Assembly (NCBI GenBank): GCA_030601705.1
Contig: JAUWBM010000013.1
Coordinates: forward strand, 1 to 40,052
Direction of reading: 5' to 3'
From: Thermoplasmatota archaeon
GTDB taxonomy: Archaea; Thermoplasmatota; E2; DHVEG-1
Length of the DNA stretch: 40,052 bases
Shown: piece after piece, positions 2-16,930 of the stretch
How the letters are laid out: each line of letters opens with the position of its first letter
Position numbering within the stretch: the stretch's first letter is position 1
Made by a program: the position numbers and the translations under genes
Notes under the pieces: model-generated
The model's input: only the letters and a program-made list of their open reading frames with translations
Databases searched by the model: none
What the model was told of the DNA's origin: nothing

Positions 2-2518
2 AATGATCAGTTTTATCATGAAACCGTTTGGATAAACGAGTCAGTTTACGGTTTCACAGATACTGTGCAGATTAGATTCATGTGTGATGCATCTGATAAC
101 GGTGATGGGGTTCATATTGATCAGATATGGGTCAACGCTACAACAACCCTAGGAAATCATACTAAATGGGCAGTTTGGAATGATGCTAGCAATCCAGATG
201 AAAATTATCCTTGGAGCTGGGATTTCAACTTCACTGATGTCAATGGCATAGGTTATTATGAGTTCTACAGCATAGGTAAAAAGAGCGGCTTTTCCGATGA
301 GACTCCACCAGCTAGTGCTGATGCAATATGCTATTACAACCCGAATCCTCCACCGAGCATAGAGGTTATCAGCCCAGCCGATGGGGGCACCGGTATAATC
401 CTACAGCCAACCTGTCAAATACGGGCAAATGACTTCGAAGGAGAGGCACTCAATGTTTATTGGTATGAAAACACAACTGAGTCTTGGATACTACGGCAGA
501 CTAACAATAGCATTGAGGCAAACACTACCGTTAACTGGACGTTTACCCAGGCAAGCGCATACGGTACCACTTATTGGTGGAAGGTTGCAGTTAACGACAG
601 CGTTAATAACGTCTCTGGTGTGTATCATTTTACTACTGAGTCTATCAACACATCAGTCGACACAATTAGTCCTTATATCCAAATATTATCGCCGTTAGAT
701 ATTACTGCTACTGGTCAGTCTGATTTAGATAATGTTACGTTGTATTATCGTTATAGTACTGATAATTCTTCTTGGGTAGGTAGAGGTAATATTTCCATTA
801 TAGGAAATGAAAGTAATCAGGCTACAGATGCCACGTCACTTACTATTAATAAGCCTGCTGGTTTGCAGGATGGGGATGTGCTTTTTGCGTTTATTGTTAA
901 GCGTGATAATGTTGTCTTCAGTGGTCCTGCTGGTTGGGTTGAGGATTCGCAGCATCTTACTGCTGCTGGGGACGATCTTTCTTCTGGTATTTATTACAAG
1001 ATTGTCACAGATGCCGCGGGTGAGCCTGCAAGTTATACTTGGACAGGTGATCAGGAGGAGTGGTCTGGTGGTATTATTATTCTACGGGGGGTGGATAATA
1101 ATAACCCGATTGATAAAACTACATCTCATGCTAATGGAACAAATGATGCTACTCCAACATGTCCCAGTATTACAACAAGCACAGATAGAGCTATGGTGTT
1201 TGCCTGCTGTGCAATGACCAGGGGTGATGTTTCATCCAGTATTGCACCTGCGGGTACGACGAAGCAATGGGATGAATACATAAATAATGCAAATGGATTT
1301 TGCGCTAACTTTACACAGACAACAGCAGGGGCAACAGGTGATAAGACATGGACTACTGATGGTGGTGATGACGATGAAGAGTGGCATACATATCAGGTTG
1401 CTTTCCGTGTTGCAAGTTGGATGCAATGGGCTGATGATAGTAATCCTGATAATGATTATGCGGATGGAGGATGGAATTGGACTTTTGACTTCCCTGATGG
1501 TTTCGGTTATTATGAGTTTTACAGTGTTGGTAATAAGTCTGGTTCACCTAATGAAACTGCTCCGGGTAGTGCTGATGCAATATGCTACTATATTCTTTTA
1601 CTCGCTCCAGTGATAAACAGTTACGATCTAAGGAATAAAACCGGTTCAAAATTAAACAATGCAACAGGATTGCTAGATGTAAATAATGAATATATATTCA
1701 CCATAAATATCACAGATATTAATGAATGGATAAACATAGAATACATCAACATCACGACCGGGTATGACAACGGCAGCGAAAGTACCACATACAATCAAAC
1801 ATTGGGGGGAAATCTGAATATGTACCTCCAATACGAGAACACCACTGGAACAGCAAACTACAACATGTTGTGGCCAGATGATGAAGCACAACTAATCCTT
1901 GGGAACTGCACAGAAATCATAATAAATAGTACAACCCGAATCATAAATATCAGTTTTATACCACGTAGTCAGGTGAGATGGGCAGCTGGTGATGGCAACT
2001 GGGATACAACACAAAACGCTACTAATGATCCTTACTCATGGAACTTCAATATAACAGTTACAGACATGGATGAATTAAAATCCTGGATAAACGATGAATA
2101 TGGAGTTTACAAGTATACTTCTATCTCACCCGACCAAAATTGGGTAGACGTCGCTGCAGCACCCGGATTCAATGATGCCTCTAGCGTTGTCACTATAACG
2201 TACTCATCAAACTACGACTTCAACATGACCATATATTTCGAAGAAAATCTTACTAATACAACATGGGGAGATACTATCCCTATTGCCAACAATGTAGATA
2301 TACTCGCAGATGCAGATCTTAATGACGATATAACTTCAGATATAACGTTTTTAGGTATCGATGAAGCAAATGCTATAGATATATTCAACAATTCAGGAAT
2401 CTTCCACAATAACAACATTAGTCAAACTGTAGATGTACAATTTGATGTTTACATACCCCTTGGCACACACGGAGGAAAATATACTGCACGTGTGGCTACC
2501 AAAATCATACAAGACTAA
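2..2518 (+). CDS. Large secreted/surface repeat protein (5'-truncated by window edge); called A0 here
   Basis: Frame is open to the window start (NDQFYHETVWINESVYGFTDTVQIRFM...), so the GTG at 65 is probably not the true start. Many NxT/S sequons, repeated Ig/FN3-like modules, and a C-terminal module shared with the ORFs at 2687 and 5315. Confidence 0.8.
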   Translation, partial: NDQFYHETVWINESVYGFTDTVQIRFMCDASDNGDGVHIDQIWVNATTTLGNHTKWAVWNDASNPDENYPWSWDFNFTDVNGIGYYEFYSIGKKSGFSDETPPASADAICYYNPNPPPSIEVISPADGGTGIILQPTCQIRANDFEGEALNVYWYENTTESWILRQTNNSIEANTTVNWTFTQASAYGTTYWWKVAVNDSVNNVSGVYHFTTESINTSVDTISPYIQILSPLDITATGQSDLDNVTLYYRYSTDNSSWVGRGNISIIGNESNQATDATSLTINKPAGLQDGDVLFAFIVKRDNVVFSGPAGWVEDSQHLTAAGDDLSSGIYYKIVTDAAGEPASYTWTGDQEEWSGGIIILRGVDNNNPIDKTTSHANGTNDATPTCPSITTSTDRAMVFACCAMTRGDVSSSIAPAGTTKQWDEYINNANGFCANFTQTTAGATGDKTWTTDGGDDDEEWHTYQVAFRVASWMQWADDSNPDNDYADGGWNWTFDFPDGFGYYEFYSVGNKSGSPNETAPGSADAICYYILLLAPVINSYDLRNKTGSKLNNATGLLDVNNEYIFTINITDINEWINIEYINITTGYDNGSESTTYNQTLGGNLNMYLQYENTTGTANYNMLWPDDEAQLILGNCTEIIINSTTRIINISFIPRSQVRWAAGDGNWDTTQNATNDPYSWNFNITVTDMDELKSWINDEYGVYKYTSISPDQNWVDVAAAPGFNDASSVVTITYSSNYDFNMTIYFEENLTNTTWGDTIPIANNVDILADADLNDDITSDITFLGIDEANAIDIFNNSGIFHNNNISQTVDVQFDVYIPLGTHGGKYTARVATKIIQD
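167..337 (+). repeat. Protein-level internal repeat, copy 1 (…SWDFNF..GIGYYEFYSIGKKSG..DETPPASADAICYY)
   Basis: Matches copy 2 at about 1418-1591 (…WNWTFDFPDGFGYYEFYSVGNKSG..NETAPGSADAICYY). Confidence 0.8.
1418..1591 (+). repeat. Protein-level internal repeat, copy 2
   Basis: See copy 1 at 167-337. Confidence 0.8.
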
Positions 2519-2686: not shown

Positions 2687-3748
2687 ATGGGAAGCAGAAA
2701 AACTACAGCACTAGTAGTAATATTGCTCATTATTTCAATATTGACTAATGGATTTCTAATAAAAATCCCCTTAGTAATAATCGCAGACGCCATAGACGTC
2801 ACAACGTATTCGGATAGCAATACCACTATCAATATAACAGTTTTTAAAACTGAACCAATAATTAACTGGTATGACTTCCAAAACGTAACTGGTGTATCTA
2901 AGTTGAACACACGAATTGACGTAGATCAAGAATATAAATTCTGCATTAACATCACTAGTGATCAAGGATGGGCAGATATAGATTACATAAACATTACTGC
3001 TTGGTATGATAACGGCAGCGAAAGTACCACATACAATCAAACAGTGGGGGGAAATCTGAATATGTATCTCCAATACGAGAACACCACTGGAACAGCAAAC
3101 TACAACATGTTGTGGCCAGATGACGAAGCACAACTGATTCTCGGTAACTGCTCAGAAACTGTTATCGATGCAAACACACATAATTTAACGTTTTCATTCA
3201 AACCAGGATATCAGGTGAGATATGCTTTTGGTGATGGTGGTGGCTGGGACAATACTGCGGGTCATAATGACACACGTTCTTGGAACTTCAATATAACAGT
3301 TGAAGATTTGTCAAATTATAAGTCCTATGTTGAAAACGAATATGGGATATACATGTATTCTCAAATAACGCAATGTACGGAAAACCCCGCTGGATCGGGT
3401 AGCCCCGGCGATAACGATATTGCTTTATTGCCACATACCAATGTCACCACTAGATGTAATGCAAACTATTCTCTTTACACGAATCTTCCTAACCTAACAG
3501 ATGGACTAGGACACTGGTTGGATAATACATCCATATCTGCTCAGGGAGGAGACCTCGCAAGAACTAACTTTGATGGTATCAACTCGCTTTATCTTTATGG
3601 AGACACTATAACTTACAGGCAACACTTAGGTAATACTATGGAAGATACGGTGGAAGTACAATACTGGGCAAACATAAGCATGGGTACACTTTCAAGTAGC
3701 TATACTTCAACAGTGACATACACTATAAACGGCGAAGTTGATTCTTAA
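2687..3748 (+). CDS. Secreted surface protein, paralogue A1
   Basis: Hydrophobic signal sequence MGSRKTTALVVILLIISILTNGF; shares INWYDFQ…GGNLNMYLQYENTTGTANYNMLWPDDEA…SWNFNITV…NEYG.Y.Y with A0 and A2. ATG at 2687 preferred over the TTG at 2666; GGTGGG lies upstream. Confidence 0.8.
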   Translation: MGSRKTTALVVILLIISILTNGFLIKIPLVIIADAIDVTTYSDSNTTINITVFKTEPIINWYDFQNVTGVSKLNTRIDVDQEYKFCINITSDQGWADIDYINITAWYDNGSESTTYNQTVGGNLNMYLQYENTTGTANYNMLWPDDEAQLILGNCSETVIDANTHNLTFSFKPGYQVRYAFGDGGGWDNTAGHNDTRSWNFNITVEDLSNYKSYVENEYGIYMYSQITQCTENPAGSGSPGDNDIALLPHTNVTTRCNANYSLYTNLPNLTDGLGHWLDNTSISAQGGDLARTNFDGINSLYLYGDTITYRQHLGNTMEDTVEVQYWANISMGTLSSSYTSTVTYTINGEVDS

Positions 3749-3864
3749 TAAATAGTTAGTATAAACTTGTATATTTTGTTGAACGTCTTTTACAATTTTT
3801 GGTAATTCTAGGCAGTTGTGAATAGAAAAATAATTTTAATAAATCTTTTGTTACCTTATTTAAT

Positions 3865-5202
3865 ATGAGAGGGATACTTAACAAAAAACGTTGTTTAATC
3901 ATAATTGTTTTAGGACTGTTAACAATGAACCTTTGTTTACCACTAGGAAATAGCAGTGATGGTGCAGAAATCGTAGATTTATTTATACATACTCCAACTG
4001 GTGAATCAATCGTTAGATATGATAACCCTGTTTGGATTAGAGGAATATGGCATTATGCAAACATTACCCTAAATGTTGAAGCCAACAAGGTTTCAATTAT
4101 TTTTTATCATGGTGATACTCCTCTCCCAATTGGAGATAGAGATGAAACCAATTACTATAACTGGAAATACGATCACGGGAGTTGGTGGGATGTTCAACAT
4201 GATTCTAGATATATAGAAAATGATTACTGCGATCATGATATTGACTTTTATTCTTTTTACATCGGGATAGATCAATATGCCGAGTCGGGTAATTGGACTC
4301 TGGTAGTATTAATTGACGATGAGCAACTACTTTCCAAGCGTGTTATTGTTGACAAGGGGGTGAGTTCCCTTGTTTTAAGGTCAGTACCAGTTACTCTTAG
4401 AGTAGAACCTTTTACAGAGGATGATTTCATATCGGAAGAAAAGTTTATTGTTGAAAATAAAGGGAATGTACCATTAAGATTATCGATAAATTATGGCAGC
4501 TATAATAACATATTTTCTACGTTGGATTTTAATGAGATCCTTAAAGTCGATCAGATAAGAGGGTATAGTATATTGGTGCATTCTAAATCTAGCTGGAAAC
4601 CAGGAACAATTACAATTAAAAGTGGAGAGGTGAGTGTAACAGGCGAGATAGATTATGTGATACCTCCAAAAAATGATGTTAGTCTGATTCCATCAAATCT
4701 TTCTCTTGGGCTAGGTATAACTGTTTTTATTGGACATAGTGGTTACGAACTTGAACAACTAGCAAATGATATAGCTTTTCAGTACATGAAAAATCTAGAG
4801 ATCAAGCTAGGTGAAACCAAGGATGTTTTCGCTTATATTAGTGGAAAAGGAAATATAACTGTGGATATAACTAGTAAAAACCTTAAAATATTAAAGATAT
4901 TTGGCAAAGGTGTTGAAGTTAAAACTCCTTTTATCGTGAGATCTAATAATACTTCTGAGTACCCTATCACTATACAGGTCAGAGGTATTGTTGCAAATAC
5001 CACTGCTTTCCTTTATTATTATCTAGAAATAGGAGGAAAAACCCAGACTTATACCACTAAAATAAATGTTGGTCCCCCTTCATCACAAGTAGAGGACACA
5101 ACATCTATCATCATGTCTATTACAGCAATGATTGTGACAATATGTATCGTTCTTTCTATAGTACTTATCATACAAGTTCAGATAAAACATAGAAGAAAAT
5201 AA
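3865..5202 (+). CDS. Membrane-anchored extracellular protein, paralogue B1
   Basis: N-terminal signal (KKRCLIIIVLGLLTMNLCLPLG), C-terminal TM plus basic tail (…VGPPSSQVEDTTSIIMSITAMIVTICIVLSIVLIIQVQIKHRRK); homologous along its length to the ORF at 6785-8137. Confidence 0.85.
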   Translation: MRGILNKKRCLIIIVLGLLTMNLCLPLGNSSDGAEIVDLFIHTPTGESIVRYDNPVWIRGIWHYANITLNVEANKVSIIFYHGDTPLPIGDRDETNYYNWKYDHGSWWDVQHDSRYIENDYCDHDIDFYSFYIGIDQYAESGNWTLVVLIDDEQLLSKRVIVDKGVSSLVLRSVPVTLRVEPFTEDDFISEEKFIVENKGNVPLRLSINYGSYNNIFSTLDFNEILKVDQIRGYSILVHSKSSWKPGTITIKSGEVSVTGEIDYVIPPKNDVSLIPSNLSLGLGITVFIGHSGYELEQLANDIAFQYMKNLEIKLGETKDVFAYISGKGNITVDITSKNLKILKIFGKGVEVKTPFIVRSNNTSEYPITIQVRGIVANTTAFLYYYLEIGGKTQTYTTKINVGPPSSQVEDTTSIIMSITAMIVTICIVLSIVLIIQVQIKHRRK

Positions 5203-5314
5203 ATATCTCGTTAAATAGCAGAAAAACGTAAGGTATATAAGTAAGTGGTACATTTAATCTGGTAAGAAAGGAATTTGCACTTTAAATATTAATGGAAATA
5301 TTCGTTTGGATGGG

Positions 5315-6475
5315 ATGAGAAAAATGTTGAGAAAAAGAAGAATATTTTCGATACTGTTAGTTACTGCACTGATCATTTCTATGTTCATTAATTCTCTCAT
5401 GTTTGAACCCATAATCATAATCAGTAACGCTGACCCGGGCAACATAAGCGAAAGTTGGTATAATGAAACTACCTTAAACGTAACAGTATTGCAATTGGAA
5501 CCGAGGATCAACTGGTATGATTTCCAGTATAATCAATCAGGAACATGGGTATCTAGATTAAATGTTCAGATAGATGTAAATATGAGCGCAGAATACAGAT
5601 TTATCGTCAATATCAGTAGTGACCAAGGATGGGCTGATATAAACTACATAAACATTACATCCTGGTTTGACAGTGGTAATGATAGTTGGACATACAACAA
5701 TAGTGGGAATCTAGGTGGAAACTTAAACATGTTTTTGCAGTATGAGAATACCACGGGGACCGCTAACTACACCATGTTGTGGCCAGACGATGAAATAACC
5801 TTTAATTCAGGAGATTGCACAGAAGCAGTTGTAACGGATTCAAGTGGCAGTCCTCTATACACCGAGTGCCATAACCTAACGTTTCCTTTCATACCCGGAC
5901 ATCAAATCAGGTATGCTCCAGGTGATGGTGCCTGGGATACCAATGCTGGTCATAATGATACATGGTCTTGGAACTTCAATATAACATGTGATGATGCAGC
6001 AGGGTACCATTCTTATGATAATCCTATAGTTGGAGAGACAATAAACGAGTTTGGAGTGTACAGTTATACAGAGATAATATCCGCAGGATGGCCAGCGATA
6101 ATTGGCACCCCGGGTACCACTGCATCGGTTAATGATCCTGGTGGCAGTGGTAACATAACCATTGTTAGTAGATCAAATGGAAACTACTCCCTATCAGTTA
6201 ATGTAACAAACCTAACACACAAATCAAATCCGACTTACATTATGCAAAACACATCAATACAGACGCAAGGTGGAGATCTAAATTCACTTACTAATTTCCC
6301 GGGGAATGCAGTTTTATGGTACTATGGTGATGCTGTACCATCATACCATCTGGCAGAAAACAATGATACAAGCCTATCAACAAGTGATGTCGAATGGGCT
6401 GTTCAAATTGGAATCGGGCAACAACCAGGAGATTATAACGCGACGATATATTATCATCTAAGAACACAAGCATAA
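5315..6475 (+). CDS. Secreted surface protein, paralogue A2
   Basis: Signal sequence MRKMLRKRRIFSILLVTALIISMFINS; same core module as A0 and A1. ATG at 5315 preferred over the TTG at 5306. Confidence 0.8.
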   Translation: MRKMLRKRRIFSILLVTALIISMFINSLMFEPIIIISNADPGNISESWYNETTLNVTVLQLEPRINWYDFQYNQSGTWVSRLNVQIDVNMSAEYRFIVNISSDQGWADINYINITSWFDSGNDSWTYNNSGNLGGNLNMFLQYENTTGTANYTMLWPDDEITFNSGDCTEAVVTDSSGSPLYTECHNLTFPFIPGHQIRYAPGDGAWDTNAGHNDTWSWNFNITCDDAAGYHSYDNPIVGETINEFGVYSYTEIISAGWPAIIGTPGTTASVNDPGGSGNITIVSRSNGNYSLSVNVTNLTHKSNPTYIMQNTSIQTQGGDLNSLTNFPGNAVLWYYGDAVPSYHLAENNDTSLSTSDVEWAVQIGIGQQPGDYNATIYYHLRTQA

Positions 6476-6495
6476 ATAAAACAATAAAAAATTTC

Positions 6496-6516
6496 AGGGA
6501 TTAAACATCCTTTTTC
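6496..6516 (+). terminator. Short hairpin followed by a T-run after A2
   Basis: AGGGAT-TAAAC-ATCCTTTTT about 20 nt after the A2 stop codon. Confidence 0.4.
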
Positions 6517-6784
6517 TCTTTTTAATATAAATAAATATCCAAGGAGAGTATAATAAGGTATTATGCAAATTCATATTTTAGAAAAGCAACAATCTGCAGA
6601 TACTTTGTATGCCCCCTCTTTTTCAGTTCTAATGTAAAAGAGATGTCAAATTAACAGGGATGAGCTTCATCTCTTATAACTCAAATTTCTCAAGGTACTA
6701 TTTAAGAGAAAGACTTTAATAGACTGATAAGGATAAGAAATACAGTCGAAGATATTGTATAATTTAGTACGGCGAGGTGATGGG

Positions 6785-8137
6785 CTGAAGCACAAAGATT
6801 GTATGATTGTATTTATAGTATTTATAATAGGTTTATTACCACTTTTTTCACCTGTCTCAGCAGATAATGATTTAACTCTAAACATACATATAATTGGAGA
6901 AAAAACACAAACACGTTTTGGCGACCCAGTGATTGTTGCCGGTATTTGGCATCATATAAATGTAACAGTAGAAAACCAGGATTTCCAGAAATTAAGTCTT
7001 AAATTCTACAATGGCGAGTCTATACCTACTGAAGGAGAGAGGAACGCAACCAACTATTACGAGTGGAAGTATGACGAAAACAGTCAGATGCCATGGATAG
7101 ACGTGATAGAATACGATGGTCGTACATACATAAGCAATGCTAGCTGTCTGAAAAATAACAAACTCTACAGTTTTTGTATAGGAATAAGAGATACTTTGCC
7201 TGACACTGCATATTATCATGAAAACTGGACGTTAGAAGTGTACAAAGATGAAGATAAACTATATTCTGGAAATATAGTTGTTGAAAAACCAACGGTTGCC
7301 CTTGCGAAAAGCCATGCCGATTTAATTAAATTCAATGTAGAGCCTTTTACTAAGATGGATGCTTCTGGTGATGATTTTTTCATAGCTAAGAACACAGGCA
7401 ATATCCCTTTAGATATAAATATTGATTATGGGGCATATAATGATATTATTAAAGAAACTAGTTTTAACATGACATTTTCTCCAGATAGTACTAATGAGTA
7501 TAATATTACGGTACAATCGGAATCTTGGACGCCCGGAATTATAGAGATGTCAGGAACCATAAGTGGATCAGTTAATGGTTCTTATATTATAACTACTGCC
7601 GTTATTACCTTTGAAACATCCATTAAAATGAATGCACCCAACTTGAAAATATTTGTAGGTCATAACACCTATGAAATAACCGAAATCAAAGATACCAATA
7701 TCGTTTTCCAGCACGTAAAAAACATCGATATGAGTGAAGGTGAAGTGAAAGATATCAATGTCTATATTTCTGGAAATGGAACAATGACTTTAGATATCTG
7801 GAGTGATGAAAAAAACGTAACCATATTAAATATATTCAGTAAAAACCAGGAGATAGAAACACCCCTGACTATAAACTCTGTGGATACCTCAGAATATGCT
7901 GTAACTGTTAAAGTTGAAGCCATTAGAGAAAACAAAATTGGATTCCTTTATTATAATCTCAAAATGGATGGGGAAACACAGACTTTCGCCACTCAGATAA
8001 CTGTCGGTCCACCTTCATCACAAGCGGGGGGAACAATATCAATCAATATGTCCACTATGGCAATAATTGTAATAATATGTTTTATCCTTGTTGCAGGATA
8101 CATGATCTCCACTCACATAAAACATAAGCGGAGGTAA
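6785..8137 (+). CDS. Membrane-anchored extracellular protein, paralogue B2; apparent CTG start
   Basis: Homologous to B1 (DPVIVAGIWHHINVT…NYYEWKYD; …VGPPSSQAGG… TM + KHKRR). GAGGTGAT-GGG-CTG AAG CAC AAA GAT TGT ATG ATT gives a normal signal peptide (MKHKDCMIVFIVFIIGLLPLFSPVSA). The ORF-track start (TTG 6755) lies upstream of the Shine-Dalgarno sequence. Confidence 0.8.
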   Translation: MKHKDCMIVFIVFIIGLLPLFSPVSADNDLTLNIHIIGEKTQTRFGDPVIVAGIWHHINVTVENQDFQKLSLKFYNGESIPTEGERNATNYYEWKYDENSQMPWIDVIEYDGRTYISNASCLKNNKLYSFCIGIRDTLPDTAYYHENWTLEVYKDEDKLYSGNIVVEKPTVALAKSHADLIKFNVEPFTKMDASGDDFFIAKNTGNIPLDINIDYGAYNDIIKETSFNMTFSPDSTNEYNITVQSESWTPGIIEMSGTISGSVNGSYIITTAVITFETSIKMNAPNLKIFVGHNTYEITEIKDTNIVFQHVKNIDMSEGEVKDINVYISGNGTMTLDIWSDEKNVTILNIFSKNQEIETPLTINSVDTSEYAVTVKVEAIRENKIGFLYYNLKMDGETQTFATQITVGPPSSQAGGTISINMSTMAIIVIICFILVAGYMISTHIKHKRR

Positions 8138-8146
8138 AATAATTAC

Positions 8147-8836
8147 ATGAAGAAAGGAGGGGTACTGTTATCACTGGCGACTGTAACAATGATTTTGTTT
8201 ACTACCTTTCTTTTCATTGAAGCAAGTGCAGGTGAAGCAGGAGTAGGAGTGCTGAATGTTCCACCAAAATACAGCATGATACGCGTGGTACAACAGGACA
8301 AATTCATAAGAGTATATCTCACTATTTCTGATTACAACTCTTGGGATGACATATATACTGTTAATGTGACCTTAGAAGATTACGGTTTGGAAACAGCTGA
8401 ATTTCTTTTTAAACAATATGAAGATACAATTTCTTATGAGAAGATAAATGAATTTAGCGAGACATCAAAAGAAAACAATTTACTGGTAAAAGAAAAATGT
8501 TCCTACAATCACTCTGATGAAAAGGAGACAGTTGCAGATAAATGCAATCTTGAATTACTATTTGTTTTTCATAAAACCTGGTTTACACGTTTAAACATAA
8601 TCGTCGCTGACATAGAGGGATCAACAGCATCGACACATATAGATTACAATGCTGAGGAGACGATGAGAAGTGGCAACATTATTATGATTCCTTGGTTACA
8701 TGAACCAATACGTGTAGTAATACCGTCATACCTTTTGAATTTACTGGCAGTGATCGCTGGATTAATCGGCGTCATATTTTGTGTTAGAAAGATGGATAGA
8801 ATAAAAATAAAAAGAGTAGCTTATGAAAAAGGATAG
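8147..8836 (+). CDS. Bitopic membrane protein with signal sequence and C-terminal TM (C)
   Basis: Hydrophobic N-terminus LLSLATVTMILFTTFLFIEASA and C-terminal TM LLNLLAVIAGLIGVIFCVRKM; starts 10 bp after B2. Confidence 0.75.
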   Translation: MKKGGVLLSLATVTMILFTTFLFIEASAGEAGVGVLNVPPKYSMIRVVQQDKFIRVYLTISDYNSWDDIYTVNVTLEDYGLETAEFLFKQYEDTISYEKINEFSETSKENNLLVKEKCSYNHSDEKETVADKCNLELLFVFHKTWFTRLNIIVADIEGSTASTHIDYNAEETMRSGNIIMIPWLHEPIRVVIPSYLLNLLAVIAGLIGVIFCVRKMDRIKIKRVAYEKG

Positions 8837-10124
8837 ACGTATCCCCCCATGTTTTCCATGTTATTTCTTTATGTTTTTTACCATGTTCATCTCTGTTAAA
8901 TTTGTATTTATATTCTTTTTCAGAGCTGCCTATGAACCAAGTTTCATATTTGAATTAACACCTTTTTATATTTTATCAGGATTAAATAATTTGCAGTTGC
9001 TGGTTTTATCTTTTATTGTGATCGTTTTTGATACCTTTCTTCATGTGAAGATCACGAGAAGGAATCTCATGTACTCTTTCCTGCCGACAGCGGTAATGCT
9101 ATGTGGCTTAGGATTAGCAATTATTACGAGGGAAATGACCGTTTCAAATCTTTTTCATTACCTTATATTTGGTTGTTTATTAGTTGTTGTTCTTATAGAT
9201 CATAAGCACTTTTTGGAGTTTTCAGAGATGCTTGTTTCTACTGAAAAAGAATCGATTGAAACTGAAATTTTAAAAGAAAAACCTGTTATTGTAAAACCGC
9301 AACCTAAAGTCATGAAAGCTTCAACTGACCACAAACTCTCTCGTTCATCTTTTTCTTTTATAAATCATCTATTTTTATTAGCTGAAAAAGCTAAAAAAAC
9401 GACCGGCAAAATTACAAGAAAAGTTAAAATTAAATCTATTAAACAACCTAAAATAGCATCCATTAAAGTTGAAAATGCAGATAAAGACAATGATAAAAGT
9501 GTCGATGAAAAAGTGTTGATATTTAAGGAAAATTTTTCTAAACTTGAGGCTAAAACCAGAAATAGACTACAAAGAGCGCAAGATATTTTAAATGAATTTG
9601 AAAGAAGAACAAAAAAATTAAGACACTTAGAAGAGGAGATCGAAAAGAGAAGAAAGAACCTAGCAGAACAAGAGAGGATTTTCAAGGATCAATTAATTTC
9701 TTCTGTTGGTATAAAAAGTAGTTACAATTTATCTTCTATGTCGAAGGATAAAGTTGTTTCTGATGTTCATATGGATAAGGAAAGTAAAGAAGATCAGAAA
9801 GTTCTTGATGGAATAAATGATTGTGCTGCAATTATTCAAAGAGGCATCTTGAAACAAGTCAACAATTCTTTTGCAGAGTTGATCGGTTTTGATACTGAAA
9901 AGCTTAGGAATAAAAGTTTGTTTAATTTTATTGCACCTGAGGGACTTGTAGATCTTGAGAAATATTATCTAGGTAGATTAAAAGGAAGCGATAAATATAC
10001 CTACGAAACTGTTTTTTCAACTAAAGACAATAGCAAGATAATAGTAGAGGTAAGTATTAAACCAACTACTTATAATGGTAAGAAAGCTGAAATTGCAATT
10101 ATTAAAGAACTGAAAAATAAATAA
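8823..10124 (+). CDS. Multi-TM N-terminus + coiled coil + C-terminal PAS-like sensor protein (D)
   Basis: About 4 hydrophobic helices in the first 140 aa, heptad-rich KE segment, then a PAS-like segment (INDCAAIIQRGILKQVNNSFAELIGFDTEKLRNKSLFNFIAPEG…VSIKPTTYNGKKAEIAIIKEL). Overlaps the C gene end. Confidence 0.75.
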   Translation: MKKDRRIPPCFPCYFFMFFTMFISVKFVFIFFFRAAYEPSFIFELTPFYILSGLNNLQLLVLSFIVIVFDTFLHVKITRRNLMYSFLPTAVMLCGLGLAIITREMTVSNLFHYLIFGCLLVVVLIDHKHFLEFSEMLVSTEKESIETEILKEKPVIVKPQPKVMKASTDHKLSRSSFSFINHLFLLAEKAKKTTGKITRKVKIKSIKQPKIASIKVENADKDNDKSVDEKVLIFKENFSKLEAKTRNRLQRAQDILNEFERRTKKLRHLEEEIEKRRKNLAEQERIFKDQLISSVGIKSSYNLSSMSKDKVVSDVHMDKESKEDQKVLDGINDCAAIIQRGILKQVNNSFAELIGFDTEKLRNKSLFNFIAPEGLVDLEKYYLGRLKGSDKYTYETVFSTKDNSKIIVEVSIKPTTYNGKKAEIAIIKELKNK

Positions 10125-10153: not shown

Positions 10154-11041
10154 TTACGATAGATTTACAATTCTTTTTGAGAACACTGCAGGTGCAGTTG
10201 TATCGTATTGGGCCATTATCCCTATTTCTGGTGTCAATGTACCTTCTACCGATTCTCTTGGTGGTAATCCACCCTGGCCAGTCATGATAGCACTAAGGTT
10301 TACAATAATGATTATTCGATCTCCGCTGTTCATACCATTTGTGTTAACGACCGACGAATCGGGATCATGAATTACGATGACACCAAATTTTATTGAGCTC
10401 GTGTTATCTAATATCGTGTAGCTTGATCCTGATGTTATCGGTGTCTCAAAGACACTTTTGTTGTCAGTATTTACATTTTGTACGAGAGATTCATTTAAGG
10501 TAAGAATCGTTAGATTGTCATATAGGACTGATAAAGTACATAAGCTTAGATCTATATCTTTTGAACCTGCTCGAGGCCGTACAGTGAGTGCGATATATTC
10601 AATTTTTGTTTTATTTACATTTGTGTATCCTGTTATTGATTCAATTGATACCCCTGCTGAAACTTCTCGAATGGTTGCTGTCCCCACGGTTCTCGCTCTT
10701 GACTGCAATGTTTCACTGGTAGTAATCAGTACACTCGCGGCAACTGCTGCGATTAAAACCATGGCGATGAAAACAATAAGAGTCCCAATACCAACCATTG
10801 CTTCTTCTTCAACTTTAATTTTTCTTTTTTCTATTCTTCTTTTATTTCCTGGTTTTATTGCAATGACAGTACTTATTCTAAGACATCCCAATCCTTGATT
10901 AGAATTAATTAAAATAAAACCATCTTTGTAGTCAACATCTTCAAGGATGCCGGTAACGACACTAGCTCTTTCTTCTCCGGGTTCTTTGGTGACGACTTTA
11001 CAGTATTTTCCAACCAGCCTTTCCAAATATTTCTTTTCCAT
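10154..11041 (-). CDS. Archaellin-family protein with ~80-aa N-terminal Sm/LSm-like extension
   Basis: AMVGIGTLIVFIAMVLIAAVAASVLI is the archaellin N-terminal helix; preceded by VGKYCKVVTKEPGEERASVVTGILEDVDYKDGFILINSNQGLGCLRISTVIAIKP, which resembles an Sm fold. ATG preceded by GGTGG. Confidence 0.85.
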   Translation of the reverse strand: MEKKYLERLVGKYCKVVTKEPGEERASVVTGILEDVDYKDGFILINSNQGLGCLRISTVIAIKPGNKRRIEKRKIKVEEEAMVGIGTLIVFIAMVLIAAVAASVLITTSETLQSRARTVGTATIREVSAGVSIESITGYTNVNKTKIEYIALTVRPRAGSKDIDLSLCTLSVLYDNLTILTLNESLVQNVNTDNKSVFETPITSGSSYTILDNTSSIKFGVIVIHDPDSSVVNTNGMNSGDRIIIIVNLSAIMTGQGGLPPRESVEGTLTPEIGIMAQYDTTAPAVFSKRIVNLS

Positions 11042-11375: not shown

Positions 11376-11999
11376 ATGAATAAAGAAGGAGCTACAGGAA
11401 TTGCAACTGCCATACTGCTAATTAGCTTTATCTTGATAGCTGCAACTGTTGCATCTGTTTTGACAGACAACTCAAGTGACATATCGGAACAGGATTTAGA
11501 AAAGATGGTGGATGATATTGTTGATGAGATCTCTACATACATACAAATAAAAGATGTAATGGGTAAATTTTATTCTATTGAAGGTGAATCACGAATTCAA
11601 AAAATTGCTGTATTGATAAAACCTCTTTTTTCTGTTGATATGGATGTATCAGAATTAATGATAAAACTATGTAACGGAGAACAAATAAAAATGCTATATT
11701 ATGGTGGACAAGCAGAATTTATCGGCACAAATTCATTATTCGAACATCCAATATGGAATAATATGGATTGTGATAGCTTTAGTTTTGTTGTAGTTCTTGA
11801 TAAAGATAAATCTTTAGTTGATTATAATACTATAGATGACAGTACCGATATGACATACATTATAATCAAGCTATCAGAAAATTTTGCTATGAAAAAAGGA
11901 AATACCATGACTATAACTTTTCTTCTAGGGAAAGGGACAACGAGAACAATAGAAGTGAAAGCTCCGTTACCTATGAAACAAATAGTTTCTCTTGAATAG
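11376..11999 (+). CDS. Divergent archaellin/type IV pilin-like protein
   Basis: Short leader MNKEGATGIATAILLISFILIAATVASVL; SD GTGAT-AAA-ATG; TATA-like TTTATATATT upstream. Confidence 0.7.
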   Translation: MNKEGATGIATAILLISFILIAATVASVLTDNSSDISEQDLEKMVDDIVDEISTYIQIKDVMGKFYSIEGESRIQKIAVLIKPLFSVDMDVSELMIKLCNGEQIKMLYYGGQAEFIGTNSLFEHPIWNNMDCDSFSFVVVLDKDKSLVDYNTIDDSTDMTYIIIKLSENFAMKKGNTMTITFLLGKGTTRTIEVKAPLPMKQIVSLE

Positions 12000-14017: not shown

Positions 14018-16930
14018 CTATTGCCTGCCTTCATTGATTGGTTCATATGGGTTGAATGCCGGGTCTGCAAATAATATGTATTCTTGATATGAAGTATATT
14101 TGTTCTTCATCATTGGCTCAGGTTGACTTCTTGCCGTACTCTGGAATGATTGGTGTATTTCATAATCTGCCGTAGGGTCTCCAGTACTAACTAAAGGTGG
14201 TGACCACCACACAAGCCAATCTTTTTCAGCGTGTAAATAACCATTTTTAGCATTTCTTAATGCAAGTCCAACGCTGCAATCTTTTTCTTTAAGATTTTCA
14301 CACACATCGTTATATATTTTATATCCAAAGTGAGGATCTGGATAAATTCCGTTTCTAGCATCTGATTTTGCCTTTATATAGGCCCTTAGAACTGAGAAAC
14401 CAGTATCATAAACTCCATTCTTGGGTTCAAGATATCCACCAGCAATATTTGATGTTGTAGATGCCGCAACAAGTGCTGCTACACCAGAGTGTAAAACTGC
14501 TTGTCCAACACTATTCTTTGGGTATAGACCATCTATTTTACCACAGATGCAACTCTCAATCCAATAAAACGATGGACCCATTTTCATATCCGCACATGAT
14601 CTAGTACTATAATCGCCAAGATCACTGAAACTTGATCCAGGACCTATGAAACCACCCATGAAAATTGGTAGGGTTTGTTCTAATAGTTTTCTTACTAATA
14701 TATTGCCAAAACCAGATGCAACCAATCTTGTAGCAGCCATTCCAAATAGATGCTGACTACCATGACCATTAGCCCATACGAAATTACTAGACTCCATGAG
14801 TTCTCCGCCTTTGGCAACATTTTCACCCACTAGGTCTCTAACTAGATGTTGACGGAAAAATATTTTATTTAGAAGTGTTAATTGTTTAATTTCATCTAGA
14901 GCTTGTTCAGAAAATCCCACTCTTTGAGCTTCTTCCTCCCAGGCTTCTTCTACTTCAAATCCGAGTGGTTTTGCAACTAGTTCTTTAGTTCGTTCACCCG
15001 CCATTTCAGAACAACCCGTAAAGTATTTAATTGGTTCTCCATGCCTAACAATTCCAAGAATTTCTCCAAATAATAAATATCTGAGTGGTGGTTTTCTAAA
15101 GTCACACCCGCCACCCATTGCTAATCCAAATGTATCTTTCCAATTACCTAATTCATTAATAATTTCATCGTAAAATACAGTTCGAGCAATTTGAGCACTT
15201 GCATCCTGTGAATCATAGCCAGTTATTCTACCAACGATATTTTCTTGGAATGGAAATTCAGAATAGACGTCATTTGCTTCATTTGACCAGTCACCGTCTA
15301 TTGGATCAATATTTCCATAAAGAACATCGCTTGGAGTTCCAGAACCATAGTAATACTGACCCTCCTCAACGTCAACTATCTGATTATAGTTGTCATAATA
15401 ATATTGGGGTATCATAACTGCACCACCAACAAGTGCAATGTTAATTGGATTATTTTTGTAATGCTCACGTAATTGTTTTATATCTCTCTCATCCTCAAGA
15501 TCAATCCTAGCAATTTTTGCAAGAAGATCATTCAAAGGATCATGGATTTCCTCAATTACATGTTCATTTGATTCTTTAATTAGACCAATATTTCTAAGAG
15601 CAGTATATGGACCAGGTAACGTTTCACCATTATCCGTTATTACATGATCATCAGCAGTAAAAGCAAATTCTGGTTTAGCAAAAATGATACCTTGTCGATA
15701 TGCAGTTAAATATGGAGCCATAGTGGAAAGCCCCTTCATCAATGCATAAGCCGGTTCCTCTAGCTTTTCAATAACAACATTAGCAGATGCTCTTCCTTCT
15801 TTTTTAGTAAGCCAAGTTCCAGATGCGTAAATAGAATATTCTGCGCCACCTCGATCATATAAAACATTTTCCGTGTAAACTATATCCCTTATAACTTTAC
15901 CGTTAGAATCTCTTATTGCTACGCCACCAGTTCTTGTTGAGCCTGTGTATATCTCATAATTTTGTCTACCAGGATGTTCATTTTCATCATCTATTCCAAT
16001 ATTAAAACTAACAGAATCCCCGAATTCATCAACATCTTCACAATCAAGATTTTCTCCTGTAAACTTCACGAGAGCATATTTATAATCATTTGGGATTTTA
16101 AAAGTGCCAACCAATGAAGAGCCTTTGACCATGGAAGGAACTGCAGTAGCTAGTTGAGTCATAGATCGTGTTGTCATTGTAACTGGGCCAAAATGTTTTT
16201 CTGTACGATCTAAAACTTTAGGTGGCCAGGCGTCTATTGGATTTGTTAAAGTGATGTAATCAATAGTGCCAAACTTTTCCATTAGAAGCTTGATGGTAGC
16301 ATTAACAATTTGTTTAACATTTTCAAATCTCAAAACACTTCCATAGCCATCGATATTTTGACCGCAAACCAACGTCTTTTTCACTCCAAGCTCATTAAGA
16401 ACTTCTCTTACGTTGGGATTTAATTCATCCGCGATTATTACAGGGATACTAAGATATGATGCTAATGGTGTAGCAACTACTCCTAGGTTATAACCAGACT
16501 CATTATTTTCAATAAGAAGGACGGCATCGCTTTCAATCCAGTATTTTTTTGCAATTTCTAAGGACCATTCTTCTGCAGAGTTAGTATCGTCAATGAATTC
16601 ATTTACTGTTATGCCAATTTGTTCTTCTGCCCGTTCAACTGATTCGGAAGGATTATCAAAATTTTTTATATATAAAGGTATAACTTCTTGTTCTCCAACA
16701 TCATTGTAATGAACCCCCAGCGGTGTAGCAATTAATGCATAAAACGGATCTGAATCGGATACAGCAATTGCATCCGGTATATCTGAAAAACTGCTAGAAA
16801 TGTAAAAAAACTCGTCTATCAAGGAAGCACTTGCCATTGTATCTGCAGGCTTCCAAGTATATATTCCAATCGATGCGACAACAAGTATCAAAACTCCAAT
16901 TATTACTATTAATTTATCATTCTTATTCAT
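14018..16930 (-). CDS. Membrane-anchored C25 (gingipain-like) cysteine peptidase with N-terminal cell-wall-binding-repeat-2-like region
   Basis: N-terminal TM; SDAVLLIENNESGYNLGVVATPLASYLSIPVIIADELNPNVREVLNELGVKKTLVCG resembles CW_binding_2; WANGHGSQH and WIESCICGKID match the C25 His (GHG) and Cys (CxxGx[FI]) motifs. Confidence 0.75.
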   Translation of the reverse strand: MNKNDKLIVIIGVLILVVASIGIYTWKPADTMASASLIDEFFYISSSFSDIPDAIAVSDSDPFYALIATPLGVHYNDVGEQEVIPLYIKNFDNPSESVERAEEQIGITVNEFIDDTNSAEEWSLEIAKKYWIESDAVLLIENNESGYNLGVVATPLASYLSIPVIIADELNPNVREVLNELGVKKTLVCGQNIDGYGSVLRFENVKQIVNATIKLLMEKFGTIDYITLTNPIDAWPPKVLDRTEKHFGPVTMTTRSMTQLATAVPSMVKGSSLVGTFKIPNDYKYALVKFTGENLDCEDVDEFGDSVSFNIGIDDENEHPGRQNYEIYTGSTRTGGVAIRDSNGKVIRDIVYTENVLYDRGGAEYSIYASGTWLTKKEGRASANVVIEKLEEPAYALMKGLSTMAPYLTAYRQGIIFAKPEFAFTADDHVITDNGETLPGPYTALRNIGLIKESNEHVIEEIHDPLNDLLAKIARIDLEDERDIKQLREHYKNNPINIALVGGAVMIPQYYYDNYNQIVDVEEGQYYYGSGTPSDVLYGNIDPIDGDWSNEANDVYSEFPFQENIVGRITGYDSQDASAQIARTVFYDEIINELGNWKDTFGLAMGGGCDFRKPPLRYLLFGEILGIVRHGEPIKYFTGCSEMAGERTKELVAKPLGFEVEEAWEEEAQRVGFSEQALDEIKQLTLLNKIFFRQHLVRDLVGENVAKGGELMESSNFVWANGHGSQHLFGMAATRLVASGFGNILVRKLLEQTLPIFMGGFIGPGSSFSDLGDYSTRSCADMKMGPSFYWIESCICGKIDGLYPKNSVGQAVLHSGVAALVAASTTSNIAGGYLEPKNGVYDTGFSVLRAYIKAKSDARNGIYPDPHFGYKIYNDVCENLKEKDCSVGLALRNAKNGYLHAEKDWLVWWSPPLVSTGDPTADYEIHQSFQSTARSQPEPMMKNKYTSYQEYILFADPAFNPYEPINEGRQ

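Follow-up and report, generated by a model that had tools for sequence, protein, structure and literature searches.

Little is known about how large proteins are arranged on the surface of archaea that lack a classical S-layer, or about how these archaea sense contact. The locus described here comes from an uncultured member of the Thermoplasmatota and, by sequence comparison, matches no known family. It lies at the beginning of a 40,052-nt stretch of genomic DNA (the window), the first base of which is also the contig start (G000:C82:1). A preliminary description read four of its genes as a tandemly duplicated cassette, A-B-A-B, in which a secreted protein (A) and a membrane-anchored protein (B) function as partners. 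This reading raises the questions of whether A and B are partners and what kind of surface structure they would belong to.

Gene content of the locus

Genes A1, B1, A2, and B2 are confirmed as four plus-strand genes at the positions first reported. The A-B-A-B arrangement is thus present, but it forms only the middle of a larger locus with the order G-A(n)-B-C-D (Table 1). Absent from the earlier description were a third A domain, encoded in the upstream giant gene G, and the downstream genes C and D. The G gene runs off the contig end.

Table 1 Features of the locus in the window and of related giant and PAS proteins in other loci
Feature	Position	Strand	Basis or remark
G, giant secreted or membrane protein, 3' part (838 codons)	2..2518	+	5' end open at contig start
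A domain of G (third in the window)	1586-2515	+	A-model match 56-368/370, E=2e-103
A1, stand-alone secreted A protein	2687..3748	+	signal peptide, 17 sequons
B1, signal peptide and C-terminal TM	3865..5202	+	homology, paralogue tree
A2, stand-alone secreted A protein	5315..6475	+	AF2 model, 21 sequons
T-rich stretch, probable transcript end, behind A2	6511..6523	+	recurs in most relatives
BRE/TATA-like promoter before B2 (GAAAGACTTTAATA)	6708..6721	+	motif scan of upstream regions
B2, three beta-sandwich domains, TM helix, and basic tail	6785..8137	+	AF2; start uncertain
C, signal peptide, ectodomain, C-terminal TM	8147..8836	+	9 nt behind B2
D, four N-terminal TM helices and cytoplasmic PAS	8823..10124	+	14-nt overlap with C
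Giants with YPRS(K/R)L motif	L092:415-6816, L095:2689-7278, L097:417-7142, L098:1557-7187, L065:13472-19288
PAS protein upstream of giant	L063:3082-4659, L065:11499-13271, L070:11559-13094, L072:6697-8169

The A domain

The two stand-alone A proteins are approximately 48% identical to each other (E=2e-85) and unrelated to B (hhalign probability 3%). As originally described, they are predicted to be secreted, with a signal peptide and no transmembrane (TM) segment at the C terminus, and they are rich in sequons: the counts for A1 and A2 (Table 1) compare with 6.9 and 7.3 in shuffled sequences, respectively (p<=0.0005), or 2.5 to 3 times the shuffled frequency. The AF2 model of mature A2, based on 30 sequences, consists of two beta-sandwich subdomains (mean pLDDT 73.5, pTM 0.56), and the same two subdomains are assigned to A1 by homology. 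Across the A alignments, the final strand of the domain mostly has Y-x-L at its end.

In every carrier, the A domain occupies the C terminus, whether it stands alone or follows a giant, FG-GAP, or propeller-like ectodomain. The remaining parts of the long carriers are LamG_3, DUF2341, FG-GAP, or carbohydrate-binding-like, and proteins of ~730 aa in other families have a repeat region that is unrecognised and probably propeller-like. There are several A domains per genome, ending several unrelated large ectodomains. A resemblance of A1 to CPR_Pam_pilin_C (E=0.0013, 18.8 bits versus a cut-off of 55) was not accepted as an identification, being shared by just 2 of 25 rows. A viral origin of A was likewise rejected, since no A relative was found in viral contigs.

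The N-terminal strand of mature A (A-N/D-PGDI...TTLNVTVL) is conserved among stand-alone A proteins in families f1 and f2; one A subfamily has a variable Pro-rich linker between this strand and the domain. The segment is absent from the A domain of G, and in the AF2 monomer of A2 the first 20 residues are unfolded (pLDDT 42-43). These features are consistent with a strand-exchange fibre, in which the N-terminal strand of one A protein would insert into the next A domain, with G as the cap and C as the membrane-anchored base. In donor-strand fibres, which also include the chaperone-usher type, the fold of each subunit is completed by the N-terminal strand of its neighbour. Assembly of this kind is documented for archaeal threads and TasA (PMC9715654, PMC9674648). 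We rate a fibre as a less likely rival of the display platform proposed below. Packing of the strand in cis would be equally possible, the opposite end of G is itself anchored in the membrane, and the best 50 fold matches of the A2 model include no thread or TasA subunit. Foldseek places the N2-N3 regions of the MSCRAMM adhesins SdrD and SdrG first (E ~1e-4, probability up to 0.89). Like the A2 model, they comprise two tandem Ig-like domains; the TM-score for the full chain is just ~0.2 and the identity ~10%, a resemblance at the fold level only.

The membrane proteins B, C, and D and the giant protein G

B1 and B2 are approximately 40% identical (B2 against B1, E=5e-89). The signal peptide, C-terminal TM segment, and basic tail ascribed to B were recovered by topology prediction, and the AF2 model of B2 (pLDDT 80.7, pTM 0.58) has the TM helix at residues 398-423 of the mature protein. 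Behind its signal peptide, B1 has an N-terminal domain in common with G, followed by two Ig-like domains and a C-terminal TM segment. The motif VGPPSSQ, previously taken as the end of B, is located just before the TM helix, and family-wide only I/V-G-P-P is typical. A tighter B alignment was used for the pattern scan, the broad one being too divergent. The Foldseek matches of B2 are generic Ig/ASH repeats and little informative, and sequon enrichment of B over shuffles is weak. Matches of B to adenovirus GP19K, RIFIN, and similar proteins were discarded, being below the cut-off and on or near the TM end. The start of B2 is uncertain: the CTG at 6785 aligns with an ATG or TTG in relatives, and there is an in-frame TTG at 6755. 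The same GAGGTGA-type leader is found ahead of this CTG and of the ATG and TTG starts of the relatives.

Two further proteins are encoded directly behind the last B. By profile comparison, the C ectodomain and the first A subdomain are related (hhalign probability 95%, E=4e-8; 91% with the subdomain alone). D has four constant TM helices and a variable soluble part, which is a PAS domain in the window and DUF4332 in L085; in other families it is a Mg-chelatase/MoxR-type AAA+ domain, in some cases together with zinc ribbons. A distant B-C-D locus is present in L102 (L102:6138-15053) and L144 (L144:5117-14032), with a D protein that carries zinc ribbons and a MoxR-type AAA+ domain; in both, it is adjoined by a gene for a VWA and Mg-chelatase protein.

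The G fragment in the window consists of Ig-like repeats and the C-terminal A domain, and complete relatives are found in L092, L095, and L097-L099. Complete copies are 1,500-2,600 aa long, of which the last ~300 residues (~310 in the window) are the A domain. From the N terminus, they contain a signal peptide, the B N-terminal domain, a TM segment, a loop of ~110 residues, a second TM segment, and a long ectodomain, such that G is a fusion of a B-type N-terminal domain with an A-type C-terminal domain. The giants of the window's family include DUF2341, LamG_3, and Ig-like parts. A YPRS(K/R)L motif at approximately residue 255, in the loop between both TM segments, is conserved across genera (Table 1). 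Several genomes have, immediately before the giant gene, a gene for a PAS protein that shares the PAS region of D.

Distribution, paralogy, and transcription

A-B pairs were looked for in other Thermoplasmatota. Of the 80 class genomes searched, 22 contain A, and the same 22, without exception, contain full-length B; in one further genome, only the B N-terminal domain occurs, within giant proteins. Among 390 genomes of the phylum, five more (G321, G323, G356, G362, and G366), from four other families, contain both A and B, generally next to each other and with C and D behind them; in G356 the A clusters and B-C-D are on different contigs. Matches of the A model in two other genomes of the phylum (E ~1e-4 to 1e-3, 45 residues) were taken as chance. 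Fisher tests of co-occurrence gave 4e-20 and 3e-38, p-values that are overstated by linkage and shared ancestry; gene linkage and co-occurrence are not independent evidence. The records of the named relatives are MAGs labelled Candidatus Thermoplasmatota, Thermoplasmata, or Euryarchaeota. In the window's family, f1, 26 of 45 genomes are without A and full-length B, including some that are 91-97% complete, which indicates that the system is accessory.

The loci of the relatives have one arrangement, G, one or two A genes, B, C, and D. Among 30 non-redundant loci, B is immediately preceded by a gene with an A domain in 29 (25 A-B, and 4 with a gene for a long A-domain protein); C comes next after B in 26, and D after C in 24. 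A and B are thus not mostly unlinked, though extra A genes with no B nearby exist (L062, L069, L080, L084, and L087), which means that A must have a role elsewhere as well, or act via a distant B. Most loci are A-A-B with a single B, and the A-B-A-B variant is present in the window, L061/L094, and L076, and in modified form in L136.

The proposed duplication was only partly upheld. A1 and A2, and B1 and B2, are homologous and form matched paralogues, but a recent tandem duplication is rejected by phylogenetic trees of A (56 sequences) and B (25 sequences). The A tree places A1 with copies from G001 and G003, apart from the A2-type clade (100/99). The B tree places B1 with copies from these two genomes, apart from the B2-type clade (100/98). 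By these phylogenies, both A-B pairs of the window are old paralogues that were inherited pairwise, and the partnership is therefore better supported than it would be by a fresh tandem copy.

The spacing of the genes points to two transcription units. C typically begins 9-10 nt behind B and mostly overlaps D; the median distance from A to B is roughly 160 nt. The A-B gap usually contains T-rich runs behind A and a BRE/TATA-like element (e.g. AAACTTTAATA) before B. This motif precedes B in 19 of 24 cases, compared to 2.3 expected from shuffles, C in 0 of 21, and D in 1 of 24. From the gene spacing, the T-rich runs, and the B-C-D promoter, we infer that B-C-D most likely forms a single operon and that A is transcribed separately. 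The notion of a self-contained two-gene cassette is not supported, in view of the coupling of B to C and D under their own promoter, the predominance of A-A-B loci, and the use of A as a C-terminal module of larger proteins. The partnership of A and B is supported by their occurrence in the same genomes, their adjacency, the matched paralogy, and the fusion of both domain types in G.

It could be argued that A, G, and B-C-D are just neighbouring surface genes with common Ig-type folds and unlinked functions, given that Ig-like folds are generic, that A and B are not homologous and seemingly belong to separate transcripts, and that orphan A genes occur. We regard this as very unlikely in light of the exact co-occurrence, the gene order conserved across six families, the paralogues that match in both genes, and the sharing of specific domains, namely the B N-terminal domain in G and the first A subdomain in C.

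Comparison with known surface systems and a proposed complex

The A and B profiles have no Pfam or NCBIfam family above cut-off and no useful match among PDB sequences. The closest parallel in architecture is with the WxL clusters of Gram-positive bacteria, which encode small WxL proteins that consist of the docking domain only, large proteins with a C-terminal WxL domain that follows adhesive domains, and the Ig-like TM protein WxLIP, usually with two docking-domain genes per anchor (PMC10599100). Similarly, the A domain is C-terminal, alone or at the end of large ectodomain proteins, and B resembles WxLIP in its tandem Ig-like ectodomains, signal peptide, C-terminal TM segment, and position beside docking-domain-like A genes. 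The differences are that B has three ectodomains rather than the two of WxLIP (DUF916-DUF3324-TM), that the locus has C and D as additional membrane partners, with a sensor or ATPase on the cytoplasmic side, and that A and B have no detectable sequence relationship to WxL or WxLIP. The WxL domain profile (PF13731) found nothing at E<=1 in the genome of the window, with Lactococcus lactis as a positive control. Searches against Pfam yielded no WxL match for 25 A-domain rows and no DUF916/DUF3324 match for 18 B rows at E<=0.1, and the A alignments contain no conserved pair of W-x-L motifs. These archaea are not known to have peptidoglycan, in contrast to the Gram-positive hosts of WxL.

Because the architecture parallels that of WxL/WxLIP and the sequence tests fail, we propose a platform that would work like WxL/WxLIP but is not a detectable member of that system. 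The locus would thereby encode an accessory complex for surface display and sensing, a reading to which we assign a probability of about one half. The A domain would serve as the docking and assembly module, alone in A or at the end of large ectodomain proteins, and a B-C-D platform would hold the large proteins and small A proteins at the membrane. In this platform, B would be the Ig-like anchor, C would add a relative of the first A subdomain that is anchored in the membrane, and D would be a four-TM transducer that signals through its cytoplasmic PAS or AAA+ end. A would dock on B and/or C, and G may function as an adhesin. Counting against the docking model, G has its own two TM segments and no obvious need of B for anchoring, some A genes are orphans with no B, C, or D in the vicinity, and the A clusters of G356 are on other contigs than B-C-D.

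Such a locus would represent convergence with the Gram-positive WxL platform. It provides a recurrent parts list, consisting of a docking module, an Ig anchor, a membrane-anchored relative of the module, and a four-TM sensor or ATPase, which would help to annotate many giant surface proteins that are currently nameless. More tentatively, A may be a new archaeal C-terminal surface-docking module, with B-C-D coupling docking or contact by giant ectodomains to a PAS or MoxR-type AAA+ effector in the cytoplasm, in a transmembrane adhesion-sensing system without known homologues.

The pairing of A and B also recalls the SlaA/SlaB S-layer, in which a secreted glycosylated subunit occurs next to a beta-sandwich protein with a C-terminal TM segment. 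In a two-component S-layer or glycoprotein coat, A would be the lattice or coat subunit and B a SlaB-like membrane anchor. The strong sequon enrichment of a secreted A without a TM segment, adjacent to an Ig-like TM anchor, is consistent with such a coat, and the probable separate transcription of A and B-C-D would permit an excess of A. However, a coat subunit should be near-universal, and the patchy distribution of A-B, which extends to near-complete f1 genomes, speaks against an S-layer. Unlike in SlaA/SlaB, the A domain is fused to many other ectodomains and B is coupled to C and D; further, A has no sequence match to any solved structure. An S-layer thus appears unlikely relative to the WxL/WxLIP-like platform.

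Genes adjoining the locus

The minus strand of the window encodes a 970-aa Peptidase_C25 (gingipain-type) protein (14018-16930), and a different C25 protein is encoded behind the locus in L097-L099 and L074. A C25 peptidase was considered as a fixed member of the locus and placed outside the core, since it is beside the locus in only one group of relatives. A small pilin/archaellin-like protein is encoded at 11376-11999 (plus strand) and adjoins the locus in L063 and L064 as well. It is the second of its kind in the window; the other is an archaellin-like protein at 10154-11041 (minus strand; PF01917, E=3e-30), which has an N-terminal extension of ~78 residues resembling RimP-C/SH3 before the pilin-type hydrophobic segment. 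This extension, odd for a class III signal peptide, is retained in L063, L064, L083, and L070.
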